Source of the DNA: a virus
Virus record (IMG/VR): IMGVR_UViG_3300006751_000055
Coordinates: 1 to 34,883 of that record
Direction: 5' to 3' (one strand)
DNA length: 34,883 bases
Shown piece after piece: positions 6,449 through 33,290 of the stretch (position 1 is its first letter; each line of letters starts with the position of its first letter). The notes under the pieces were generated by a model. It saw nothing but the letters and a program-made list of their open reading frames with translations. It made no database searches and was not told the DNA's origin. Both the position numbers and the translations under genes were made by a program.

Positions 6449-9639
<3,191 letters not shown>

Positions 9640-9682: not shown

Positions 9683-10372
9683 CTAAAACACCTCGTCAGC
9701 GATACCCAATTCAACGGCTTCTTCAGCCGTGAGATAGACATTCTGACGGCGATCAAACAACTTCTTGATGTAGCGTGCGGTCATATTGGTTTCAGCAACA
9801 AGAGCCTTCACATAACGGTCCTGTGTCCACTTGGCTTCATCCAACTCGTTCTCCAAGTTGTGAATCTGACCAACGTGCCCAGAAGCAACGCCGTGCATCA
9901 TAACGCGACAGTTCGCGCCAATCTTTCGCTTACCCTTAGTACCAGCAGCCATCAGGAGAACCCCGGCTGACATGATCTTCCCAATGCCGGTTGTAGCGAT
10001 GGGGGTACCCTCTGATCGGCACCAGCGAATAGTGTCGTATAAAGAAAACATGTCTGCGGCACTCCCGCCGTGCGTCGATAATACTAGTTCAATCGGATCT
10101 GGTATGCAATCGCCGCCGTCGTTCTTTTTTTCGTGTTCAGCCTTCTTCTGCACATTGAGGGCACTTAAAACTCGCAGAGCATATGCAACCTCGCCGATCT
10201 TTTCTTCATCGACCTCGCCATACATATTAATTAATTGTACCTTGGGTTTCTCTTCTTCGGTCGCAAGCAACAAAGATTCGATGAGTTCCGCTGCGGTATT
10301 CTCTTCTGTCTTCTCTTCTGGCTCTTCTTCTACTTTCGGCTTCTTCTTTTTACTAGCAAGATGTGATTTCAA
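9683..10372 (-). CDS. ClpP-like serine protease
   Basis: This 229-residue ClpP/crotonase-fold protease starts at TTG 10372, which has AAGGA seven bases upstream overlapping the previous stop; an in-frame ATG at 10399 is the alternative. An N-terminal Lys/Glu-rich leader of about 45 residues precedes the core. The catalytic triad can be placed: Ser135 in GKIMSAGVLLMAAG, His160 in CRVMMHGVASG and Asp207 in KLFDRRQNVYLTAEEAVELG. STHGGSAADMFSLYDTI matches the ClpP oxyanion-side region. Phages use ClpP-like enzymes as prohead proteases or to alter host proteolysis. No Clp ATPase is in the window, and late-type neighbours favour head maturation, which is inference. Confidence 0.9.
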   Translation of the reverse strand: MKSHLASKKKKPKVEEEPEEKTEENTAAELIESLLLATEEEKPKVQLINMYGEVDEEKIGEVAYALRVLSALNVQKKAEHEKKNDGGDCIPDPIELVLSTHGGSAADMFSLYDTIRWCRSEGTPIATTGIGKIMSAGVLLMAAGTKGKRKIGANCRVMMHGVASGHVGQIHNLENELDEAKWTQDRYVKALVAETNMTARYIKKLFDRRQNVYLTAEEAVELGIADEVF

Positions 10373-10376
10373 AATG

Positions 10377-10682
10377 TTATCCTTTTTTATTTCGGGCATC
10401 GATTCCAAGCTTTGTGGATTTAGGGTTGCCTTTTCGATTCAATTCTATCAGCTTATAAGGAAAATGTTTAGCCCATTTTAACCATTCTTTTTCTGTTCTA
10501 AAATCTCTCGAAAAAAGGAGCACCCTTGTTTGACTAACGGGATTCCAGCCAGAGCCAGACTCTTCCCAATCACTTACCACTCGGAATAGTTTCTTTGCAG
10601 CGCGACCGTCGACATCGTTGACCTGCAACCTATATCGTAAACCTTCGTCGCAATAATCTTCTTTCCATGCAGTTGCTTCCAT
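10377..10682 (-). CDS. Small protein of unknown function
   Basis: This is a 101-residue protein behind a clear SD (GGAGAAGAATC before ATG). It is Trp-rich (AWKEDY, VSDWEESGSGW, EKEWLKWAKHFPYK) and basic at the end. Strand-like segments (RYRLQVNDVDG, TRVLLFSRDF) alternate with helices, suggesting a small alpha/beta domain. No catalytic or metal-binding cluster is visible. It lies between the late-type P-loop and protease genes; its stop overlaps the SD of the protease. Confidence 0.65.
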   Translation of the reverse strand: MEATAWKEDYCDEGLRYRLQVNDVDGRAAKKLFRVVSDWEESGSGWNPVSQTRVLLFSRDFRTEKEWLKWAKHFPYKLIELNRKGNPKSTKLGIDARNKKG

Positions 10683-14592: not shown

Positions 14593-15609
14593 TTACCTTA
14601 GCAATATGTGTGCGTTGCTTTCCACTTGACTAGCACCGGTTTGTTTTAAGAATTTTGCCTTGGACTGAAACTCGCTCATTGTGCGTGCGCCAGTATATGA
14701 AAAGCCACTGCGTATACCCATAGCCAAATCATCCATAATGTTTTTTGCAGCGCCTTTGTATGGGATCGTTGTAGAAACCCCTTCTGGCGCTGATGTCAAT
14801 CGACCTCGCCACGCAGTCTGGGCGTCGCGACTAGCCATACCACGATATACTTTATAATCTAAGCCGTCTCCTTTCGTATGTAGATCGCCAGGACTTTCAT
14901 CGGTACCCGCAAGAAGCGAGCCAAGCATTACAAAGTCTGCGCCAGCGGCTAAAGCTTTAACGATATCCCCAGAGTTTTTAATTCCGCCGTCGGCAATGAT
15001 TGGAACATCAAGCCCTTCGGCAGCGCATTCAAAAATAGTTTGAAGACCGGGTACCCCATGACCCGTTTGAATCCGTGTTGAACAGATTGATCCTCCGCCA
15101 ATATTACAGCGCACGGAATCAGCACCCCAGTCGACCAGATCCCTGAACCCTGGAGCCGTAGCGACGTTGCCAGCCATAATGTGCACAGTATGTCGACTTT
15201 TTATCTCGCCGATGGCGCGTTGAACTAATGCGTGATGACCATGTGCCACGTCAATACAAAGGACATCTGCGCCAGCTTGGACAAGTGAAGAAGCTCTCTC
15301 CAAATAATTATCAGTCACTCCAACAGCGGCACCAAGAAATCTGCATGCAGGATCTCTCAATGCTAGTTCCACTAATCGACACTGTGAACCAATATCGTTA
15401 TAGCGGTGTATAATTCCAAGCCCCCCCTGTTCAGCAACCACGATTGCCATATCACTCTCAGTCACGGTATCCATCGGACTAGATATGATCGGCACTTCTA
15501 ATTTTATATCTTCATCCAATCGATTGGAAATAGAAATTTCCGACCGACTTTCAATATCTGAGTATTGCGGCACTAGCAATACATCATCGTATGTCAATGC
15601 CTCATGCAT
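14593..15609 (-). CDS. guaB: IMP dehydrogenase / GMP reductase family protein, CBS-less
   Basis: This is a 338-residue TIM-barrel enzyme. The start at 15609 ([12 protein letters not shown]) has GGAGG six bases upstream; the longer frame from 15672 overlaps the previous gene. Hallmarks are [12 protein letters not shown], the catalytic loop GGGSICSTR with Cys176, [13 protein letters not shown] for the phosphate, YRGMAS, and the flap [13 protein letters not shown]. The flap and the YTGA-type C-terminus are closer to IMPDH (IMP to XMP, the committed step to GTP) than to GMP reductase. The two CBS regulatory domains of bacterial GuaB (about 488 residues) are absent, so nucleotide feedback through them is lost. 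GMP reductase activity is the alternative. Confidence 0.93.
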
Positions 15610-15868
15610 CCATAGCCTCCTTAATAATTTCTTGAGCTTTGCCCCAGCACTCTGGGCAGTATAGACGAACAATTTCTTCTTTTTCTCTGACTACTACGTT
15701 CCAAGTCATAACCATTTCGCGGTCCTGCTTGTCAAATTCCAGTTCACATGCACTGCACTCATCTGGTAAGTGCTCGAACATATTCATCTTCTGTTTGAGA
15801 TCACGTTCAAGTTGTTTCTTTGCTCGTTTCTTTTGCTTTCTTTTTATTTTTCGATCTATAGAACTCAT
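15602..15868 (-). CDS. Small zinc-ribbon protein
   Basis: This is an 88-residue protein. A very basic N-terminus (MSSIDRKIKRKQKKRAKKQL) precedes a treble-clef-like zinc site: CSAC near residue 38 and CPEC near residue 71, separated by about 30 residues that look like strands (MVMTWNVVVREKEEIVRLY). It overlaps dUTPase by four bases (ATGA) and IMPDH by eight. Such small zinc proteins are widespread in T4-like phages; a nucleic-acid binding role is likely but not shown. Confidence 0.75.
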   Translation of the reverse strand: MSSIDRKIKRKQKKRAKKQLERDLKQKMNMFEHLPDECSACELEFDKQDREMVMTWNVVVREKEEIVRLYCPECWGKAQEIIKEAMDA

Positions 15869-16639: not shown

Positions 16640-19600
16640 CTATCCTAAAAGTTTAAAATTATATCTTAAGGATCTCGTGCTGAATCCCCAGTCTTCGCTA
16701 TAATCCAGTCGCGCCATATACGGTCTATTGAGATGAACCACGTCTTTCTTCGGGTCGACAGACCAGCATTTAATAGTGGTGTTTCGACTGGTAGAATCCA
16801 CAACCTTCACTAGCCAATAGGTCCGACCCTTGCGAGTCTGCTTCTCAATTACCTCCCGAGGAATAAACCATGCCACACCAAGGTCATGGTCCCAATCTCC
16901 CAACGGAGGAACACAGTGATCAGCTAACTGCTCCTCTATATAATCATCCATCACTAGTGCAAACGGAAAGACTCCGGTCAAGTTGACCAAGTATTCAATC
17001 TTCTCTTCATCTGTAAAGTCTCCTTCCGGTTCGTACATCTCAATATTTTCGTTTAGCTTCTTACGAGTTTTGGGTCGATCAACCACTGCCGCAGACCAGA
17101 AATGCTTAAGCCCAGAGAAACGATCATCGACTAACTCGTTCAGAGCCTGTGCTCGCACAAGAACATCCAGAGCCTTTTTATTTAATTTAGAATAAATTAT
17201 TTCTTCATCGAATAACAAATCCTCAACAGTATTAAACGGGCGGCGAGTGATAATCTGTTCAATCGCTGCGTCTCCCAATCCCTTGATCGAAGTCAGGGGC
17301 TGAATCAAAGTTCTCCCATCGGCAGAGATCTCCCACACCGTGCCAGATGAATTAATGTCCAGCGCCGCAATTGTAAACCCTTGAGATTTAGCTACATTGA
17401 TTGCTGTTTCTTTTCTGGCTTCTGGCTCTTTGTCCAGAAACGCTGCCATCCACTCTGAAGGGAAATAATGCAGAAGATGGGCACACTGATAGCTAAGAAT
17501 GCTGTAGCTAACAGCGTGGGACTTATTAAAACCATACCCTGAGAAGTACTCGAACTTTTCCCAGAGTCCTTCGGCGAAGGCTTTCGAAAGTCCTTTATCG
17601 ATACAACCTTCGATGAACTTATTGTAGATTTTAATTTTCTTGGCATCTGTGGAGCCTGTTCCCTTTTTAGTTAGAAGCTTGCGGAGCATATTCCCTTCAT
17701 CAAGAGAAAGGTTCTTACCCAGCTTATGTGCCAATAAAGCAATCTGCTCTTGGAAAATCAAGAACCCATAGGTCTCTTCGGTAACCTCTCTAATTAATTC
17801 ATGCCCATAGACAACATCGTTAGGATTGTTTTTCGCCTCCACATATAACTCGTGCACGTTCGCACTCAAAGGACCGGGACGATAGATGGATGTGATCGCC
17901 GAGATATCAATAATACTTGTTGGCTTGGCTTTTTGGCAGAATGTTTGTGCACCTTTCTCTGTGAACTGAAAGACACCAGCCCACTTACCCTTGTGAAAGA
18001 TGTTCTCGTAGATGGCTTGGTCATCAAAATTTATTTTATCTGGATGGAGGTGTTCATCATAATACTCTTTGACCTGTGCGAAGGTTGGATCTGCGATACC
18101 TTTGTGGCGTCGGAGGATGTGTTTAATAGCTCCCTCCATCATTCGCAGAGAAGCCAAGCCAAGGATATCAAATTTAATAAACCCTAGTGGTTCCAAGTGT
18201 CGGACGTTCTGTCCTTCCGACCACGGGGTCTGGCGTACGCCCCCACTGTTAATCAGTGGCATCCATTTATCAAGATTCTCTCCAACCACAACACCACCGG
18301 CATGGCGGCTAACGCTGCGAACCTGTCCGTGTAAAGCCTCGATGTGTGTTTTGATGTCTGGATATTTATCAAAGAACTTCTGAAGCGTTGGGGAGAACTC
18401 CACAACCTCATCAAAGGTTGGGGTATATACTCCTGCTTTGATCCCGTGTTTCTTTTTTGCGATAGGAGTCGCTTCATTAATCATTCGCGATGTGACTGGA
18501 TTAACCTCAATAAAAGGAATCTCATATAGCTTCGCAATGTCCTTGATTAAAGAACGCAGCTTTAATGTATTAAAGTTTGAAATAGGAACAACCGTGCTGT
18601 CGCCCCACTCTTCAATAAGTTGTTCTTTAAGAACCATTGGATCGGAGACATCATAATCAATATCCGGATAATCTGTTTGGTCTCTCCGCATGAAACGCTC
18701 AAAGAGTAGATTATATTTGAGAGGATCGACCTGAGTAATACCGATCAAAAAAGATACTAAAGATCCAGCGGCGGAGCCACGACCTGCGCCGACAAGCTGT
18801 CTTTCGAGAGCTTTGTCTGATATGGTTTTCATTGTCAAGAAGTATTTTGTGAAGCCTCGATCTTCTATAATCTTCAATTCATACTTGATGCGATCCACGT
18901 AGTCCGATAATCTAGGATCGTCTGCGCCCATGTATTTGCGAAGCCCAGTGACACAACACTCTCTCAGTGCGCGTTCGGGTGTCTTACCCTCTGGAACAAC
19001 AAAATCAGGTAAGCGTACCACATCATCAGGCATGAAGGTTTCAATCCGATTATGAGCGATATCGTGCGTGCGTGTGATCGAAGCTTTGATTAAGTTATCG
19101 TCATACTCTTGTCCGAGTGCAAAAGAATATTCTTTATAAGCCTTCCACATCTCATCGCCATTCTTAGGATATAATTCGTAGCCGATATCATCGATGCCTT
19201 CTGGAAGCTCGGTACTCATCCAACTGGGCATGCCTCCTTTACCGAGCCAGCCCAATCGTTTGTAGAGTTCGCGGTCGCGCCACGCCTCTGGACTTGGGTA
19301 GTGACTGTCTGCCGTAGAAACCAACTCCACGCCATACTCTGTTGCGACTTGAATAATATGCTTGTTCAGTTCATGTTGTTCTGAGATGTTATTCCACTGA
19401 AGTTCTCCATACCACCGGTCGCCGAAGATCTTTTGCATCTTCTCGGTGGTCAACCTCATTGCATCCATAATAGCATCAGGACCATCATCTTTATTATCCC
19501 AATAATTGCCAGCATACACACCGCCAAGACAAGCAGACGTGGCAATAACACCTTCACTGTGAGCAGCAAGCATATTGTAATCAACACGAGGATACCGATA

Positions 19601-20065
19601 AAAATTTGTCCCATCATAGCTCTCCGATATGAGCTTAAATATGTTGTTCAAACCTGTTTGGTTCATTGCCAACAAAATAAGATGGTTCCTTTTGTTCAAA
19701 AGACTCTTGGCACGCTTGCTTGCGTTTTCGTCCTCAATAACCAGCCCGCTTTTCTTCTGCTTCTTTTTTGCCTCTTTCGACTCTTCATATGCAGTTTTCC
19801 ACTTTGAGACAGATGGAATAAAATAAGCCTCCACTCCAAAAATCGGCTTAAAATCTTTTCCTTCCGCCTTCATTTTTTTTGCATGCAGAACCTGATAAGA
19901 GAGTCCATTCATATGCCCGTGGTCGGTCAGAGCCAACGCATCGCTTCCGTTTTGATATGCAAAATCCATATGGTCCTGCGGATATCCTAACCCGTCAAAC
20001 AGCGACAAGCCGCTATGTGCATGGAGCCCCACAAAAGGAATGGCTGTCTTTGTTCTTTCACTCAT
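16640..20065 (-). CDS. dnaE: DNA polymerase III alpha subunit (family C, DnaE-type)
   Basis: This is a 1141-residue replicative polymerase, nearly the length of bacterial DnaE. The start at 20065 (MSERTKTA) has AGGAG nine bases upstream. The PHP domain at the N-terminus keeps metal-ligand motifs: LHAHSGLSLFDG, LTDHGHMNG, GVEAY and TADSHY, so metal-dependent exonuclease activity is possible. The polymerase core shows GAGRGSAAGSLVSF and the acidic pair in YPDIDYDVSD (about residue 467), with the third Asp in FIKFDILGLASL (about 632). RHAGGVVVG and GYGFNKSHAVSYSIL are also typical. The C-terminus carries an OB-like stretch. It overlaps the preceding gene by eight bases. Phage DnaE alongside a family A enzyme is unusual. 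Confidence 0.97.
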   Translation of the reverse strand: MSERTKTAIPFVGLHAHSGLSLFDGLGYPQDHMDFAYQNGSDALALTDHGHMNGLSYQVLHAKKMKAEGKDFKPIFGVEAYFIPSVSKWKTAYEESKEAKKKQKKSGLVIEDENASKRAKSLLNKRNHLILLAMNQTGLNNIFKLISESYDGTNFYRYPRVDYNMLAAHSEGVIATSACLGGVYAGNYWDNKDDGPDAIMDAMRLTTEKMQKIFGDRWYGELQWNNISEQHELNKHIIQVATEYGVELVSTADSHYPSPEAWRDRELYKRLGWLGKGGMPSWMSTELPEGIDDIGYELYPKNGDEMWKAYKEYSFALGQEYDDNLIKASITRTHDIAHNRIETFMPDDVVRLPDFVVPEGKTPERALRECCVTGLRKYMGADDPRLSDYVDRIKYELKIIEDRGFTKYFLTMKTISDKALERQLVGAGRGSAAGSLVSFLIGITQVDPLKYNLLFERFMRRDQTDYPDIDYDVSDPMVLKEQLIEEWGDSTVVPISNFNTLKLRSLIKDIAKLYEIPFIEVNPVTSRMINEATPIAKKKHGIKAGVYTPTFDEVVEFSPTLQKFFDKYPDIKTHIEALHGQVRSVSRHAGGVVVGENLDKWMPLINSGGVRQTPWSEGQNVRHLEPLGFIKFDILGLASLRMMEGAIKHILRRHKGIADPTFAQVKEYYDEHLHPDKINFDDQAIYENIFHKGKWAGVFQFTEKGAQTFCQKAKPTSIIDISAITSIYRPGPLSANVHELYVEAKNNPNDVVYGHELIREVTEETYGFLIFQEQIALLAHKLGKNLSLDEGNMLRKLLTKKGTGSTDAKKIKIYNKFIEGCIDKGLSKAFAEGLWEKFEYFSGYGFNKSHAVSYSILSYQCAHLLHYFPSEWMAAFLDKEPEARKETAINVAKSQGFTIAALDINSSGTVWEISADGRTLIQPLTSIKGLGDAAIEQIITRRPFNTVEDLLFDEEIIYSKLNKKALDVLVRAQALNELVDDRFSGLKHFWSAAVVDRPKTRKKLNENIEMYEPEGDFTDEEKIEYLVNLTGVFPFALVMDDYIEEQLADHCVPPLGDWDHDLGVAWFIPREVIEKQTRKGRTYWLVKVVDSTSRNTTIKCWSVDPKKDVVHLNRPYMARLDYSEDWGFSTRSLRYNFKLLG

Positions 20066-20963
20066 TAATATCAACTCCTATTGGATTCCACTCTCTATAA
20101 GAAAGTATACATTTGGCGGGTCTATGTACCGTGTTTCCGCTGCCGGTATACTTACAAAAATTCTGCCAGCTATCAATACCGTAATACCAATCGATCTCCG
20201 ATACTATAGCTTCCTCTACTTTAGCAGATTCAAAAACTTTGTCAAGAGAAAAAAACCTCGCTGACCATTTTTTATGTAGAGGCAATCTTTCAGTAGGGAT
20301 TTCGCCGGATTGTTTCTGTCCCGGTACCTTATCGCCGGTCCCTGAACGGATCACTTTCATATATTCAGAGTAGTCATCTGCATCAAACGTGAACCCCAGG
20401 TATTTTCCCTCGCGAACAGTCTCCCCGAGGTCGCTTAAAAAGAATGCACGGCGGCTAGATATATCTTTTCTATATGGGCGCAACACAGAAGGTTCGTATA
20501 CCCCATACGGGAAAGCGACATAGAACCTATCAGGGGCGACCCAAGTGCTTATCTGGGTTGATGTGTCAAACGCTGACCGAGCACCATATAGCACACTCCA
20601 AGCCAAGCAATCCCGCTTCTTTCGATCATTAGGATGGACAGGGACATAATAAATTGTTACGGGCTTCTTCTCGTCTGTGGGCTTAATACCATAATTTCTA
20701 CCCAGGCATACTGGATCATAAATATAATCTCCGAGCCGGTGACGAATCAATGGTTGCATGTCGTCATTGCATACGACCCAGATTGTTTCGCAACCAGCCC
20801 AGGCACACTCAACCACGGCTCTTTCCACTGCTAGATAGTTCGGAGCAACAGGCATCAAAGAATCGTGCCATGGAAAACTAAAATCCAGCGGCTGTCCAGC
20901 CACGGGAACAATGCCAGCCAAGTGAAACGTCTTTTCACTGATTGTACTTTTACGCAAAGACAT
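20058..20963 (-). CDS. Nucleotidyltransferase-like protein, probably leaderless
   Basis: This is a 301-residue protein. The N-terminus AGIVPVAGQPLDFSFPWHDS followed by a helix with YLAVERAVVECAWAG and then ETIWVVCNDD resembles the Rossmann-like start of sugar-nucleotidyltransferases (GIVPVAG..., IWVVCND), but the GxGTRL loop is not classical. Later parts (DRFYVAFPYGVY, GKYLGFTFDADD) are mixed alpha/beta. From memory, proteins like this occur in T4-like marine phages without assigned function. No SD precedes the ATG; the -10 of a sigma70 promoter ends six bases before it, so the mRNA may start at or next to the AUG. It is coupled to dnaE. An active-site assignment is not possible. Confidence 0.7.
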   Translation of the reverse strand: MSLRKSTISEKTFHLAGIVPVAGQPLDFSFPWHDSLMPVAPNYLAVERAVVECAWAGCETIWVVCNDDMQPLIRHRLGDYIYDPVCLGRNYGIKPTDEKKPVTIYYVPVHPNDRKKRDCLAWSVLYGARSAFDTSTQISTWVAPDRFYVAFPYGVYEPSVLRPYRKDISSRRAFFLSDLGETVREGKYLGFTFDADDYSEYMKVIRSGTGDKVPGQKQSGEIPTERLPLHKKWSARFFSLDKVFESAKVEEAIVSEIDWYYGIDSWQNFCKYTGSGNTVHRPAKCILSYREWNPIGVDINE

Positions 20964-27595: not shown

Positions 27596-28156
27596 TTAAT
27601 GTCTGCGTTGATGGTGTTTTCTTTTATTTCTTTTATTTCTTTTATGAAAGCGTTGGCGGGGTTTGTGGTGAGGTTTCGTATGTGCCTTATGCCGCCGATG
27701 ATGACGGTGTGGGCGATATCGCTGTGGGCTTTGGGTATGGCTTCGAAATTTTCTTCCGTTACGCAATTGGCGACGGTACCAGCGATAGTTGTAATGAGAG
27801 CGATAGTGCTGATAATAAAAATCAGCTTGATAACCCATGCAGCGGCGATACTGCCGTCGATGCTTTCGCCAATGACGATGAGTGTAGCGCACAACATTGT
27901 CAGGGACGTGCTCATAGAACAACCATGCTCGTTCATAATGATCAAATTCAGCGACTAGAGATAAATCTAGACCAGCATTATACAAATGTTCACTGTGATA
28001 AATCAATGGAGTCTGAGCATACCATACAATAGTATACCCTCTATAATCTATCGCCATCGGCGTTGGTTCACAAGGGATTGCATATGCCGGTGAAGTAGTA
28101 GACGCTAGCGACAACAGAAGAACCGCCACACCTGTATAGAATATTTTATTTTTCAC
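27596..28156 (-). CDS. Secreted His/Arg-rich basic protein
   Basis: This is a 186-residue product starting at GTG 28156, which has AGGAG seven bases upstream inside the end of uvsX; the frame is open further up but unsupported. The first 26 residues are a signal peptide (VKNKIFYTGVAVLLLSLAST, ending SPAYA with cleavage before IPCEP). Residues about 30-85 look folded, with a Cys (IPCEPTP) and aromatic strands. From about residue 90 the sequence becomes Tyr/Arg/His-rich, ending in a tail with HRHHRRHKAHTKPHHKPRQR. Very basic; could bind DNA, LPS, metal or peptidoglycan in the periplasm. No family known to me. A nested minus-strand ORF and a plus ORF in the same DNA are probably shadows. Confidence 0.7.
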   Translation of the reverse strand: MKNKIFYTGVAVLLLSLASTTSPAYAIPCEPTPMAIDYRGYTIVWYAQTPLIYHSEHLYNAGLDLSLVAEFDHYERAWLFYEHVPDNVVRYTHRHWRKHRRQYRRCMGYQADFYYQHYRSHYNYRWYRRQLRNGRKFRSHTQSPQRYRPHRHHRRHKAHTKPHHKPRQRFHKRNKRNKRKHHQRRH

Positions 28157-29282
28157 TTTCAGTCTCCTCTTCATCTCCGTAAAAATCTGATGCTTCGCCC
28201 AGACGCTTGTCAAACTTTAAAATGACTTCCTCATCCATAATTTTAAGCACACGACTGCGAAACTTTTCATCTTGCAATTTGTCTAGCCAGTGTGCTGTTT
28301 GAAATTTATCAACCGAGCCGTCCTCATATACCAACTGATACCACGCTCCAGCATTTTTTAAATTATCAGACCCCTTGATAGCATCCAACCAACTTTCCTC
28401 GTCTTGGACTCCGACTTCCTCGCCCCAAAGGATTTTAAATGCACTCTGGCGACCTTGTGTTCCAAAACGAGATTTCTGAATCTTGGCTTTAACCTCTGAG
28501 CCAATGCGGAACCCGCGATCATCCATAACAAATGCGTTCTTAGCCTTACGTCCTGTGAGCCAGATGCGAAGTGAATACGCATAATGCATTGCTTTTCCAC
28601 CGGGGGTAAAGTATGGAGTGGTAAGCGCTTCGGCAATATTGCTAGTAATATTTGTTTTAAGTTGGTTGAGAACCAAGAAAGTTGACTGACTATTGGCGAT
28701 AGGGACGGTTAACTTTGACATACCCTTCGATAAAATTCTTGGCTTAACTGCCATGGAAGACAGGGGATTAAAGTCTCCCTCAACGTCAGTAGTAGACGGT
28801 GTAAGCGCTAGCGAATCCCATATAAAAAGCATACGGTTCTCGTTTGTCTCCAAGAGATCCTCGATAGTTTCCAATACGAATTCTACCGACTGAGCTTGGA
28901 CATACAACACACGATCCACATCACATCCACCGCGAGCCAGGAACTCCGGATCAATTGCAGATTCTGAATCAAAGTATATTACGTCAATACCCATCTTCTG
29001 TGCGTTAGCTGCGACTTGTGCTGCTAGAAATGACTTCCCTGTAGACTCTAGTCCTGCGATCTCTGTGATCTTTCCTACGGGAATTCCGGCAAGGTGTCCA
29101 CGACAAATAATAGAATCTAGCCATCGAGAGCCTGTGGGAATCCAATCGTTAACCTCTGTTGGGTTTTTCTCTGCGAGATTGTGTGCAACATTGATCCCGG
29201 CTTTTTTGTTAATAAGTGCTCGCATATCTGCAATACTCAACTTGCCGACTTTTGTTTTCTTTCCTGATTTTGGTCTTGCCAT
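28146..29282 (-). CDS. uvsX: RecA/UvsX-like recombinase
   Basis: This is a 378-residue strand-exchange protein. The start at 29282 (MARPKSGKK) is preferred; the ATG at 29297 overlaps the SD. Walker A is GLESTGKSF with ITEIA before it, Walker B-like ENRMLFIWDSLALTPST, and LVLNQLKTN plus a flexible loop follow (TTPYFTPGGKAMHYAYSLRI). C-terminal acidic tail EEETESEK, as in UvsX and RecA. It has homologous recombination and recombination-dependent replication roles, together with the gp32-like SSB in the same unit. An RNA pseudoknot-like element lies between this gene and the preceding isomerase gene. Confidence 0.95.
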   Translation of the reverse strand: MARPKSGKKTKVGKLSIADMRALINKKAGINVAHNLAEKNPTEVNDWIPTGSRWLDSIICRGHLAGIPVGKITEIAGLESTGKSFLAAQVAANAQKMGIDVIYFDSESAIDPEFLARGGCDVDRVLYVQAQSVEFVLETIEDLLETNENRMLFIWDSLALTPSTTDVEGDFNPLSSMAVKPRILSKGMSKLTVPIANSQSTFLVLNQLKTNITSNIAEALTTPYFTPGGKAMHYAYSLRIWLTGRKAKNAFVMDDRGFRIGSEVKAKIQKSRFGTQGRQSAFKILWGEEVGVQDEESWLDAIKGSDNLKNAGAWYQLVYEDGSVDKFQTAHWLDKLQDEKFRSRVLKIMDEEVILKFDKRLGEASDFYGDEEETESEK

Positions 29283-29308: not shown

Positions 29309-29343
29309 AAGGCACCTGATAACCCTATGCCTTCCTGTGGGTT
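29309..29343 (-). repeat. Pseudoknot-like RNA element, copy A (between FKBP gene and uvsX)
   Basis: Minus strand: AACCC (29339-29343), AAGGCA (29328-29333), GGGTT (29321-29325), TGCCTT (29309-29314). AACCC/GGGTT (5 bp) and AAGGCA/TGCCTT (6 bp) interleave, giving an H-type pseudoknot. It begins four bases after the TAG stop of the FKBP gene. Copies B and C share the loop GGGTTA and the CAGG motifs. Confidence 0.65.
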
Positions 29344-29347
29344 CGAA

Positions 29348-29779
29348 CTAACCTTCGGAAATTTCAACTAGTTCTACTTCAAAGTTAAGATCTTTACCCG
29401 CTAGTGGATGATTGTGATCGAGTTCGATCTCTTCATCTTCTATAGAGTTAATCTTGGCTACGAGGGGCTGTCCGGTTGGAGTCGTTCCTTGCACAGAGTC
29501 TCCAACTGAAAAAGCAAAGCCCTCGGGAAAAGCAGCTTTAGGTACCTTTACAATTGCTTCTGGGTTTCGGGGTCCGTATGCTTCGTCAATTCTGAAAGCC
29601 TTGACTTCTCCTACGTTCATGCCAACAACCTCTTTTTCGAACTGTGGAAGAAGACTGCCCGCCCCCAATTGGAAATCTAAGGTTTGACTGCGTGAGCGTG
29701 AATTATCAAACTCCGTGCCGTCATCTAATGTGCCCTTATAATGGACTTTTACACTCTGTCCTTGTTTTGCTTTGCTCAT
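29348..29779 (-). CDS. FKBP-type peptidyl-prolyl isomerase (SlyD-like)
   Basis: This is a 143-residue protein with the FKBP half (VKVHYKGTLDDGTEFDNS, FQLGAGSLLPQFEKEVVGM, KAFRIDEAYGPRNPEAI) and an inserted flap domain (about residues 70-120) closing with ELDHNHPLAGKDLNFEVELV, as in SlyD. It has isomerase and chaperone activity in the cytoplasm; there is no signal peptide or His-rich tail. A phage-encoded folding helper fits the GroEL/GroES-like genes. It lies between two copies of a pseudoknot-like RNA element, like a self-contained cassette, between the SSB and UvsX genes. Confidence 0.93.
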   Translation of the reverse strand: MSKAKQGQSVKVHYKGTLDDGTEFDNSRSRSQTLDFQLGAGSLLPQFEKEVVGMNVGEVKAFRIDEAYGPRNPEAIVKVPKAAFPEGFAFSVGDSVQGTTPTGQPLVAKINSIEDEEIELDHNHPLAGKDLNFEVELVEISEG

Positions 29780-29810
29780 ATTGTATATAATCCTTATTAA
29801 AGTAAAGTTT

Positions 29811-29848
29811 GAGACACCTGTAGTAACCCGTGCCTCCCTGCGGTTTTT
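29811..29848 (-). repeat. Pseudoknot-like RNA element, copy B (between OMP-like and FKBP genes)
   Basis: Minus strand: AACC (29842-29845), GAGGCAC (29830-29836), GGGTT (29825-29829), GTGTCTC (29811-29817). Stem 2 is 7 bp with one G-U; stem 1 (AACC/GGTT) is 4 bp. It starts a few bases after the TAA stop of the OMP-like gene. Confidence 0.65.
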
Positions 29849-29851
29849 TAT

Positions 29852-30346
29852 TTACCAGTTTACGCCAGTGGTCGCTGCACAGCGCCAGAAACTCTTAACA
29901 TCGGGAATGTATGTTACATGAAAGGGAAGACTAAACCGACCTACATCGGCTGTATATCCAATCGCAGTAACAAGATGAACGTAATTATCATCTCCGCCTG
30001 GGTCAAATGGTGCGACGTTAGCTCCAACAGCAAGTTGAAGTTGTTCAGCAAACTCGAACCCAATCAGTAAACTAGCCGAAGGTGCAAAAACACTTTGGTC
30101 TAGCCCTGACACAGAAAAGTTCTCCACAAATAGGATATCGAGCCACTCTCCCCCTCTCAGGGTTTGCTGTAATTCGAATCCCAAAATAAACATATGAGGT
30201 CGACTTAATTTGTCAGTCTGGTCTCCTTTGTGTAGATAGGAATAGCCGAAGCGAACCCCATTTCGCGTTTTCCAATCGCTCTCTTCAGCAAATGCCGGTG
30301 CCGCAAAGCACATGGCTAAAATACACAATAAAATATTTTTTAACAT
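29852..30346 (-). CDS. Outer-membrane beta-barrel-like protein
   Basis: This is a 164-residue exported protein; the start at 30346 (MLKNILLCILAMCFAAP) has AAGGGA upstream. Signal peptide with cleavage after AFA, before EESDW. The mature part (about 145 residues) alternates polar and hydrophobic residues in strand-length runs (VRFGYSYLHKG, MFILGFELQQ, SLLIGFEFAEQLQLAVGANV, VHLVTAIGYTADVGRFSLPF) and ends in Trp (TTGVNW), the C-terminal aromatic typical of BAM-assembled barrels. Size fits eight strands. A role in superinfection exclusion or host surface change is inference. It stands between two pseudoknot-like RNA elements. Confidence 0.7.
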   Translation of the reverse strand: MLKNILLCILAMCFAAPAFAEESDWKTRNGVRFGYSYLHKGDQTDKLSRPHMFILGFELQQTLRGGEWLDILFVENFSVSGLDQSVFAPSASLLIGFEFAEQLQLAVGANVAPFDPGGDDNYVHLVTAIGYTADVGRFSLPFHVTYIPDVKSFWRCAATTGVNW

Positions 30347-30372
30347 TGTTTTTCCCTTGTCATATAAAAACT

Positions 30373-30407
30373 GAGACACCTGATAACCCTGTGCCTCCCT
30401 GTGGGAT
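30373..30407 (-). repeat. Pseudoknot-like RNA element, copy C (between SSB and OMP-like genes)
   Basis: Minus strand: ATCCC (30403-30407), GAGGCAC (30391-30397), GGGTT (30385-30389), GTGTCTC (30373-30379). Stem 2 is 7 bp with one G-U; stem 1 has CCC/GGG. It starts four bases after the SSB stop and is followed by AGTTTTT, so it could also act as a terminator. Confidence 0.65.
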
Positions 30408-31188: not shown

Positions 31189-31247
31189 TGGCTTTTTCTC
31201 CTAGTTGTTAAAGTAAACTCAGCTAATCTTCCAAGTTTCTAGTTTAT

Positions 31248-31284: not shown

Positions 31285-32106
31285 TTATTTTTGTATAGCA
31301 GAACTTCTTGCTACCGCAAAAACATAATCCTGCTCATACTCAGTTGAATATATCCCGTATGATGTTGTCAGGTTATCATGCGCAGTGAGCGCAGCTTGCG
31401 TTTCAATTTTTCCCAAAAGCTCAGAGTCTTCGTTAAGTTTTTCTTTATTTATTGCATAATAATACCACTTCTCTCTCGGATAGTCAAGTGGAAAAAATAG
31501 ATTTTCTTTTCCAGTTGCCATATCAACGATCCCGACGGTCAAAAGCCGAGATGTCTCGTGGGGTGAAGAGAAATTACTTAACACTGGCTTTGTGTGAGTA
31601 TATACCTCAAGCATATGAAGGGTCGACACAAGGGTTTCACGAATCTTTTTATGATATGAAGCTACCGTAAGATTTGGCAATGCTGTTGCAACAGTCGGAA
31701 TATCTACAATCGTCATTTTTTCAAATACCGCTGATCTGGCATATTCCTGTAGCACTCCATATACTGTCGCCTCATTTAAAGAGGGCTTGTCTGAAGATGT
31801 GTGAAGATAAAGTACGCTTATATTACAATTTTTTATATATGATAGGACTCTCAAAGAAGCTGCTGAAATTATGTCTGCGCCGTCAACGATAAATAATACT
31901 TCGCCTTTGACTGCCCTAAAGAAGTTTTTAAACGATGGACACTTTTCCTCATAAAGCACCGGAGAAGACTGTCCCTTGATATATTTAGTCTTGCCGTGAG
32001 CCCTCTTGTTCCCCACTAGAATATTATAAACTTCATACTGAGGGTATTCTTTGAAAACATTTGCGACTGCACATGCCTCTTCTCCTAACCCGATTACCAC
32101 ACTCAT
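31285..32106 (-). CDS. FtsZ/tubulin-like protein lacking the classical GTPase signature
   Basis: This is a 273-residue protein starting at 32106 (MSVVIGLGEEACAVANVF), with GGTGGAG upstream. The order matches FtsZ: an N-terminal beta-loop-alpha with GLGEEACAVANVF (FtsZ GVGGGGCNAVNRM), a strand-loop-helix VLFIVDGADIISAASLRVLS where FtsZ has GGGTGTG, then SVLYLHTSSDKPSLNEATVY like VAVVTKPFNFEGKKR, a segment MTIVDIP like SLITIPN, and NFSSPHETSRLLTVGIVDMA like VDFADVRTVMSEMGYAMM. The glycine-rich GTPase loop is gone, so GTP binding is doubtful. From memory related uncharacterised proteins occur in marine phages. Its stop is at 31285, just upstream of the SSB promoter. It shares a TAATG junction with polA. 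Confidence 0.65.
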   Translation of the reverse strand: MSVVIGLGEEACAVANVFKEYPQYEVYNILVGNKRAHGKTKYIKGQSSPVLYEEKCPSFKNFFRAVKGEVLFIVDGADIISAASLRVLSYIKNCNISVLYLHTSSDKPSLNEATVYGVLQEYARSAVFEKMTIVDIPTVATALPNLTVASYHKKIRETLVSTLHMLEVYTHTKPVLSNFSSPHETSRLLTVGIVDMATGKENLFFPLDYPREKWYYYAINKEKLNEDSELLGKIETQAALTAHDNLTTSYGIYSTEYEQDYVFAVARSSAIQK

Positions 32107-33290
32107 TATCTCCACCTCGCCATGTTTCCAAAGTCTTTTCCCACAGATGCATTAACAACATAACGACCAAGGTCGGTATTGCCAAACGTTATTACCATCT
32201 TTTCTAACAGATCTGCATCTTCCTTTGCAAAATCGACAACCAATGAATCATGTAACAAAAATGATATGTTTGATTTTCGACCCTGTAGTATTTTACCAAC
32301 TTCTATCGCTCTTTTTAAGAGTAAATCGCTCGTTGTACTTTGAATAATATAGTTAAGAGCGTGATGCTTGTCTGCGACAATAGTTCTATTGAAAACGGTC
32401 TTTACACATTTTCCATCGAAGTGTTCTCTTAGCACCTCATCTCGTTCATAGGCTCTATCAGACAGAAAATCCTTAGAGTTTGGATTATATAACCATGCAA
32501 AGATTCTCTTCTTTGCAGCATCTCTCGTCAAGGCACCTCGATAAATATTTTTTATATTCCATTCATGAATGTCGATATCTGGCTGCGCCTTTCCGGAAAG
32601 TGCCAAAAGAGTCCGAAGTTCTGCTGCGTTAAAGTCAAGCTCTAAAAAATAATCGTTAGTGGGTTTTACAACCGAGCGGAAACCTTTATCCAATGTTAGG
32701 ATAGGGAAACTATTCTTACTTGTCGTGAGTCGACCGGTCTTAGATTTGAAAGCCAGATAGTCCACGCGGTGCGCACCTTTTTTAATTAACTTTTTATATA
32801 ATCGGCGGGCGCGGGGAAGAGCCATAAGATTTTTAAGAGCACGTGCGTCGATGTTCAATGGAAGAGTCTTAATGTGACCCAGCATTTTAACCAAGTCTAG
32901 CAGGAAATCATAATTTTCTGGCTTCTCGTAATTATTGAGCACGTGCTCTGTTATCTGATTTCGAATCTCACAGTATTCTAATAAAAAATTCTGTGGTACG
33001 AGATCATAAAAACAATTCTGGTCTAAATCAACTTTCGCAGTGTCACACGCTTTAATATAATTGTGCAGCTTGGCATTTAGTTTAGTCCACTCTTCTTGCT
33101 TATGACTTGGACAGACTTCAGCAATGGATTTTCCACAACAATATAGATTGGCATACTCCACAGGCAAATCAAGGTGCGGTGTGTATTTCCACGTAGCAGA
33201 TAATCCTGAAGGGATGTGATCCCGCACGATATCACCAGAAGTGTAAATACCTGCGCATTCTTTTTTTGTATCGAGGGCTTGAAAAAGCAA
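32106..33290 (-). CDS. polA: Family A DNA polymerase, polymerase core only
   Basis: This 394-residue polymerase is much shorter than Klenow-type enzymes (about 600) and has no visible 3'-5' exonuclease. Motif A is LELDFNAAELR (Asp219), motif B is RDAAKKRIFAWLY with Arg256, Lys260, Phe264 and Tyr268 in the RxxxKxxxFxxxY spacing, and motif C is LLHDSLVVDF (His347-Asp348). SKTGRLTTSKNSFPIL and PDIDIHEWN also match the family. Residue 264 corresponds to E. coli Phe762. The start is probably TTG 33290 behind AGGA; no ATG fits. Translation is coupled to the FtsZ-like gene by TAATG. It may work with the separate FEN nuclease and DnaE. Confidence 0.9.
   Translation of the reverse strand: MLFQALDTKKECAGIYTSGDIVRDHIPSGLSATWKYTPHLDLPVEYANLYCCGKSIAEVCPSHKQEEWTKLNAKLHNYIKACDTAKVDLDQNCFYDLVPQNFLLEYCEIRNQITEHVLNNYEKPENYDFLLDLVKMLGHIKTLPLNIDARALKNLMALPRARRLYKKLIKKGAHRVDYLAFKSKTGRLTTSKNSFPILTLDKGFRSVVKPTNDYFLELDFNAAELRTLLALSGKAQPDIDIHEWNIKNIYRGALTRDAAKKRIFAWLYNPNSKDFLSDRAYERDEVLREHFDGKCVKTVFNRTIVADKHHALNYIIQSTTSDLLLKRAIEVGKILQGRKSNISFLLHDSLVVDFAKEDADLLEKMVITFGNTDLGRYVVNASVGKDFGNMARWR

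Follow-up and report, generated by a model that had tools for sequence, protein, structure and literature searches.

The translational operator of T4 gene 32 consists of a pseudoknot, followed by an unstructured A/U-rich stretch and then the ribosome binding site (PMC535899, PMC3014915). The STAXI motif (RF01728; PMC2864571) has likewise been described as pseudoknots that recur close to ssb and further DNA-handling genes. The L17 downstream element (RF01708) is a conserved RNA structure located directly after the coding sequence of a bacterial ribosomal gene, where it possibly provides 3' UTR feedback. The PeSL (early promoter plus stem-loop) cassettes of T4-type phages are intergenic structured elements tied to the modular shuffling of small genes.

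The element analyzed here resembles the T4/T2/RB69 gene 32 operator in being an H-type pseudoknot, both stems of which covary, and in its link to a gp32-family SSB. A ribosome binding site follows in both, and the U-rich tail seen in 46% of copies may be the counterpart of the operator's A/U-rich unstructured stretch. However, the T4 operator resides in the gene 32 leader, whereas the present element is located 3' of ssb and of other genes in several copies, and has nearly invariant loops with a loop 1 of 5 nt versus 1 nt in the gene 32 operator (T2 anatomy). Identity with STAXI was considered from its description and is unsupported. STAXI forms a tandem array of 153 positions whose loops are UUCG, whereas the present element occurs as single 33-nt units, one per gene; loose Rfam scans gave no STAXI match. 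A STAXI control search was silent in 14 of 14 control genomes and is uninformative alone. Like the L17 downstream element, the present element is a conserved structure directly following a coding sequence, but the L17 element belongs to a bacterial ribosomal gene, and the present one has no Rfam match to that family. It shares with intrinsic terminators and REP-like 3' stabilizing hairpins the slot after ssb in relatives and a similar distance from the stop codon, but differs from them in its pseudoknot, its nearly invariant loops and its optional U-run. The likeness to PeSL cassettes lies in the intergenic structure and the small-gene shuffling; unlike those cassettes, spacers of ~27 nt between element and start codon leave little room for a promoter.

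Results

Three copies in the window

The window is a viral record of 34.9 kb. Its minus strand carries three copies of the shared element, in the spacers that separate ssb, a 175-aa ORF, the FKBP gene and recA, at the places given by the first-pass annotation (Table 1). They begin 7–8 nt past the stop codons of ssb, the 175-aa ORF and FKBP. Covariance-model scores of 45–54 bits (E 1e-8 to 1e-10), together with the recurrence of the same element (468 hits in 326 fetched loci, with 380 unique contexts), exclude a chance resemblance. None of the window copies was called a terminator on the transcribed strand. The nested fold energy of single copies is ordinary (z −1.7 to +0.2), with only the stem 2 hairpin predicted; thus, the case for the pseudoknot rests on comparative evidence.

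Table 1 Features of the window and anatomy of the three copies.
Feature	Position	Strand	Details
recA/UvsX recombinase	28146..29282	-	Pfam PF00154, E 1e-35; PHROG 97
Copy C, after FKBP	29309..29341	-	53.7 bits; S1a CCC, L1 ACAGG, S2a AAGGCAT, linker A, S1b GGG, L3 TTATCAG, S2b GTGCCTT
FKBP/SlyD-like peptidyl-prolyl isomerase	29348..29779	-	Pfam PF00254, E 9e-19
Copy B, after 175-aa ORF	29811..29844	-	45.1 bits; S1a ACC, L1 GCAGG, S2a GAGGCAC, linker G, S1b GGT, L3 TACTACAG, S2b GTGTCTC
ORF with signal-peptide-like N-terminal stretch	29852..30346	-	likely ATG at 30346
Copy A, after ssb	30373..30405	-	53.0 bits; S1a CCC 30405-30403, L1 ACAGG 30402-30398, S2a GAGGCAC 30397-30391, linker A 30390, S1b GGG 30389-30387, L3 TTATCAG 30386-30380, S2b GTGTCTC 30379-30373
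ssb, gp32-like single-stranded DNA-binding protein, 258 aa	30412..31188	-	Pfam gp32 PF08804, E 1e-13; PHROG 1192, E 2e-24
ssb leader hairpin	31215-31238	-	8-bp stem, loop AAGATTAG, then ACTTTAAC and Shine-Dalgarno; outside the pseudoknot family

The ORF with a signal-peptide-like stretch has no match in Pfam or PHROG. A GTG at 30379 falls within stem 2 of copy A, and such GTG 'start codons' within stem 2 are ORF-calling artefacts. Further phage genes, recognized mostly by reading ORFs, occupy positions 6449-8035, 9683-10408, 14593-15672, 16640-20074 and 32106-33290. From ORF reading alone the phage apparently encodes a GroEL-like chaperonin, a ClpP-like protease, an IMP-dehydrogenase-like protein and a DnaE-type polymerase, and a piece of a PolA-like polymerase was recognized by a Pfam match.

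No Rfam 15 family was detected in the window at the gathering score. When the threshold was relaxed to an E value of 5, nothing was found on the L003 element and a chance snR35 match appeared elsewhere in the window stretch; at E values up to 1, nothing was found on any element of six loci. A nucleotide search of 50,697 cultured-phage records returned only matches of ~17–22 bases, with E near 1 and inside coding genes, and no such element was found in the literature outside subscription journals. We rate the element as a new family of RNAs within a familiar general type, the structured intercistronic element.

Homologues and the structure of the pseudoknot

A protein search with the SSB identified 80 related viral contigs. 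Most of them display the pattern CC[A/G]CAGG-stem-[A/G]GG...CAG-stem after the ssb stop codon, and the covariance model finds a match in 60 of them, including two weak ones (E 0.01–0.03). Pattern scans of viral contigs added further loci, and de-duplication by context resulted in 380 copies with 325 distinct sequences.

The consensus is an H-type pseudoknot of 33 nt, comprising a stem 1 of 3 bp, the loop RCAGG, a stem 2 of 7 bp, a one-base linker and a loop ending in CAG. Stem 2 reaches 99.6% pairing over 64 distinct sequences; at 4 of the 7 pairs both sides vary, and the whole structure exceeds 500 of 500 shuffles and all slid controls in both the number of paired cells and the covariation score. 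The CC/GG pairs of stem 1 are nearly invariant, and its third pair covaries. Among the 325 sequences the third pair is C-G in 148, A-T in 97, G-C in 23, T-A in 13 and T-G in 20, such that all four Watson-Crick forms occur; it is paired in 93% of sequences versus 47% after shuffling, and none of 2000 shuffles reached as high a value. In the lineage of L240 and L258 the CC/GG core is swapped for a fully paired CGC/GCG, as read by eye. The shuffle statistics are inflated by the kinship of the sequences, which affects neither the occurrence of four pair types nor the comparison with slid controls.

Covariation in homologues, which the first-pass annotation had proposed as a test, is thus present. 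Hundreds of homologues back both stems of the pseudoknot that it had described, and the compensatory variation it had noted in stem 2 extends to them. Its proposal for stem 1 holds in part: the CC(C) does pair with the loop GGG, but the additional AA/TT pairing is not supported, as a fourth pair (position −2 with loop[4]) is paired in 46% of sequences versus 50% after shuffling. Stem 1 is thus 3 bp long.

Wobble pairs are confined to one polarity: read in the mRNA sense, there are 171 G.T cells and no A.C cells, which points to selection on the mRNA-sense molecule. On this comparative evidence the element is one that acts as mRNA.

Hardly any variation is seen in loop 1, at the end of loop 3 or in the central bases of stem 2 (GGC/GYC), and contacts between loops and stems may be inferred from this. 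The linker base goes with the sequence of loop 3: A occurs with ..TCAG (96 copies) and G with ..ACAG (183) or ..ATAG (40). In a third subtype, found in some of the homologues, an additional hairpin of 5–8 bp is inserted in loop 3. Tables of subtype by gene, drawn up for linkage to the upstream or the downstream gene, are confounded by phylogeny.

Genomic context and distribution

An ORF stop codon lies at most 75 nt upstream of 370 of the 380 copies, at a median distance of 10 nt and with 80% of the distances (the 10–90% range) within 7–16 nt. A co-directional start codon lies downstream of 371 copies, with a median of 27 nt between knot and start. Most copies (339 of 380) follow ssb on its own strand in the same locus, and the majority of these also precede recA. 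Confinement to the ssb-recA spacer was, however, overturned by a wider scan. Copies also follow genes for Hc1 (PF07432), cold-shock (PF00313), FKBP, cytidylyltransferase-like (PF01467) and 67-aa family proteins; the 67-aa family has no match in Pfam or PHROG. The same small genes recur in varied orders, each followed by a copy, and some contigs contain a series of 3–4 gene-plus-knot units with no ssb nearby. In L345 (8419-9285) and L338 (11716-13179), for example, FKBP, a 67-aa GYELR..LLGMA protein, a cold-shock protein and an Hc1-like histone are each followed by a knot.

Several records of 131–204 kb carry just 1–2 copies. In one phage record of 180 kb the sole detected copy is ~110 kb from a divergent, 35%-identical ssb, and one of 172 kb has two copies by ssb and one ~95 kb away. 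The absence of ssb from the shorter records means little, since these may be fragments.

Nearly all 380 copies come from viral contigs, and the carriers are many uncultured, largely marine phages. A pattern search of genome contigs found 10 candidates, 2 of which fit the element; the other 8 are without the full motif. In L198 (CP070664.1, a WOR-3 MAG) the order ssb-element-recA lies inside the MAG chromosome, and in L204, a Flavobacteriales MAG contig, a series of copies is located behind small ORFs. Both are probably phage DNA, and their location is a possible hint of hosts.

Terminator hairpins and U-rich tails

Of 286 ssb loci, 27 had a T-tailed hairpin called behind the gene; this number is a maximum, as a few of the calls are doubtful. 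Several of the 27 occupy the slot of the knot with similar spacing. In relatives without the knot, ssb is often followed by a GC-rich hairpin and a T-run, which in loci such as L017 lie only tens of bases before recA; terminators so close to recA are presumably leaky. Mapped on the SSB tree, knot and hairpin would have changed places ~5 times, only 1–2 of which are forced by well-supported branches. The exchange supports, but does not prove, a shared job for the knot and the terminator hairpin. In L043, ssb is directly followed by a pseudoknot-like structure whose loops differ (AAACCG..GGCAGAC..GGGTT..GTCTGCC) and which has ATTTTTATTTTTT behind it; this structure is perhaps an intermediate between knot and terminator.

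A U-rich tail, defined as at least 5 T in 8 within the next 12 nt, follows 46% of copies versus 8.5% of the regions upstream of control start codons, a control that includes coding sequence. The frequency varies with the downstream gene, from 58% before recA to 11% before Hc1 and 8% before the 67-aa gene. With the tail in fewer than half of the copies, the family does not have the form of a terminator, in which a GC-rich hairpin is directly followed by a U-run; the element is not ordinary terminator sequence.

A hairpin in the ssb leader

The covariance model and the descriptor detected no copy of the knot in the ssb leader; every copy was either 3' of ssb or in the vicinity of another gene. 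The leader contains a different hairpin, outside the pseudoknot family (Table 1), that is 98.3% paired over 29 leaders, with double changes at 8 of 8 pairs. Its loop is 8 nt long, e.g. GATATTAG, and the flank ACTTTAAC precedes the Shine-Dalgarno sequence. The hairpin occurs in the leaders of L003–L077, with or without a 3' knot and including phages with the terminator hairpin. It is reminiscent of the T4 gene 43 hairpin operator (PMC3014915) and is a better candidate for SSB autoregulation than the knot.

Discussion

We tentatively favor, at somewhat short of an even chance, a knotted intercistronic element of the mRNA 3' end that protects or attenuates messages. The cis-acting module would be a rigid 33-nt H-type pseudoknot which, judging by its position, lies just clear of a ribosome that terminates at the stop codon before it and would fold behind the last ribosome. 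The folded knot would block 3'-to-5' exonucleases and so stabilize the message of the upstream cistron, and copies with a U-rich tail would also promote partial transcription termination. Messages of ssb and of other, probably abundant, small genes would thereby be kept stable while the genes that follow would be lowered. This reading draws on the fold, seen in the covariation of both stems; on the acting strand, seen in the wobble polarity; on the position after stop and before start codons; on the terminators in the same slot of relatives; on the enrichment of U-rich tails; and on the occurrence of copies behind Hc1, cold-shock, FKBP and ssb genes, as 3' protection would suit genes with products that are probably required in large amounts. 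Terminator or mRNA protection was among the roles listed by the first-pass annotation and is the most plausible of them, but not in the form of a plain terminator. Against the 3'-end reading, over half of the copies are without a U-run, and the invariance of the loops and of the middle of stem 2 suggests more than a passive roadblock needs, pointing either to a specific partner or to strict demands of the tertiary fold. A bolder version, possible but doubtful, is a new class of phage RNA, a 3'-end mRNA cap in which a protein-free rigid knot stops 3'-to-5' exonucleases behind each cistron and which spread as gene-plus-knot modules among uncultured phages; it would be the phage counterpart of exonuclease-resistant viral RNAs, facing in the opposite direction.

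The U-rich tails could instead mean that the knot is itself a leaky terminator, with a partial stop at the U-rich stretch 4–8 nt downstream and a step down from ssb to recA. The enrichment of tails, the canonical terminators of relatives, which must leak so close to recA, and the L043 structure are all in its favor, but 54% of copies are without a U-run, the tails track the downstream gene and not the element, the tail control takes in coding sequence, and a terminator has no need of conserved loops; we regard it as rather unlikely. Those loops would be accounted for by a dedicated trans factor, such as a phage or host RNA-binding protein, an antiterminator or a decay factor, that reads RCAGG and CAG. 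Loop and mid-stem bases are nearly invariant across phages with SSBs ~60% identical, and the linked states of linker and loop 3 also fit, but tertiary contacts alone could account for the invariance and no candidate partner gene was identified, leaving such a factor unlikely. The SSB itself might be the partner, nucleating on the knot, spreading over the next ribosome binding site and repressing recA and the small genes. The layout is near that of the T4 gp32 operator (PMC535899, PMC3014915), and the great majority of copies are downstream of ssb. However, the knot is absent from the ssb leader, the sole copy of the 180-kb record is remote from its divergent ssb, series of copies stand behind FKBP, cold-shock and Hc1 genes in contigs without ssb, and ssb has its own covarying leader hairpin, also in knot-less phages. 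The gp32-style autoregulation suggested earlier is weakened accordingly, and an SSB operator is decidedly improbable.

The remaining readings place the function in DNA, in the next gene or in the stop codon. As DNA-level cassette joints, the repeats would drive the recombination that shuffles gene-plus-element modules, like integron attC sites or the T4-type stem-loops. Although recurring small genes in different orders with a copy after each agree with this, an attC site is a nested hairpin of bottom-strand ssDNA, whereas here the stems interleave and the wobble polarity, confined to the sense strand, reveals selection on the mRNA-sense molecule. Such a joint is very unlikely, and the shuffling of modules may be a by-product. 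Riboswitches commonly take the form of a small H-type pseudoknot whose loops are conserved, as in the preQ1 and SAM-II types, and the element could in principle sense a metabolite and act on the next gene. A riboswitch is more improbable still, given that the downstream genes share no pathway, that the upstream stop codon sets the spacing, that one operon holds several copies and that Rfam gives no match. Stimulatory pseudoknots have a similar spacing of 7–13 nt from the stop codon, which is what a signal for readthrough or frameshifting would have in common with the element. That proposal is rejected as having next to no likelihood: there is no conserved in-frame extension past the stop, stop-to-knot distances have no period of 3, a second in-frame stop follows within 3 codons in about 20 of 181 copies, the extensions vary in length and mostly end after some 20 codons, and open frames through the knot are trivial because the knot consensus is stop-free in every frame.

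The element constitutes a previously undescribed and well-supported family of RNAs; its members in uncultured phages number in the hundreds, and it was found in neither Rfam nor cultured-phage records. The ssb leader hairpin adds a second, separate candidate, in this case for SSB autoregulation outside the T-even phages. If the knot does block exonucleases or attenuate transcription, it would be a rare case of structured 3' elements provided one per gene, and a tiny portable genetic part with which to tune genes within an operon.
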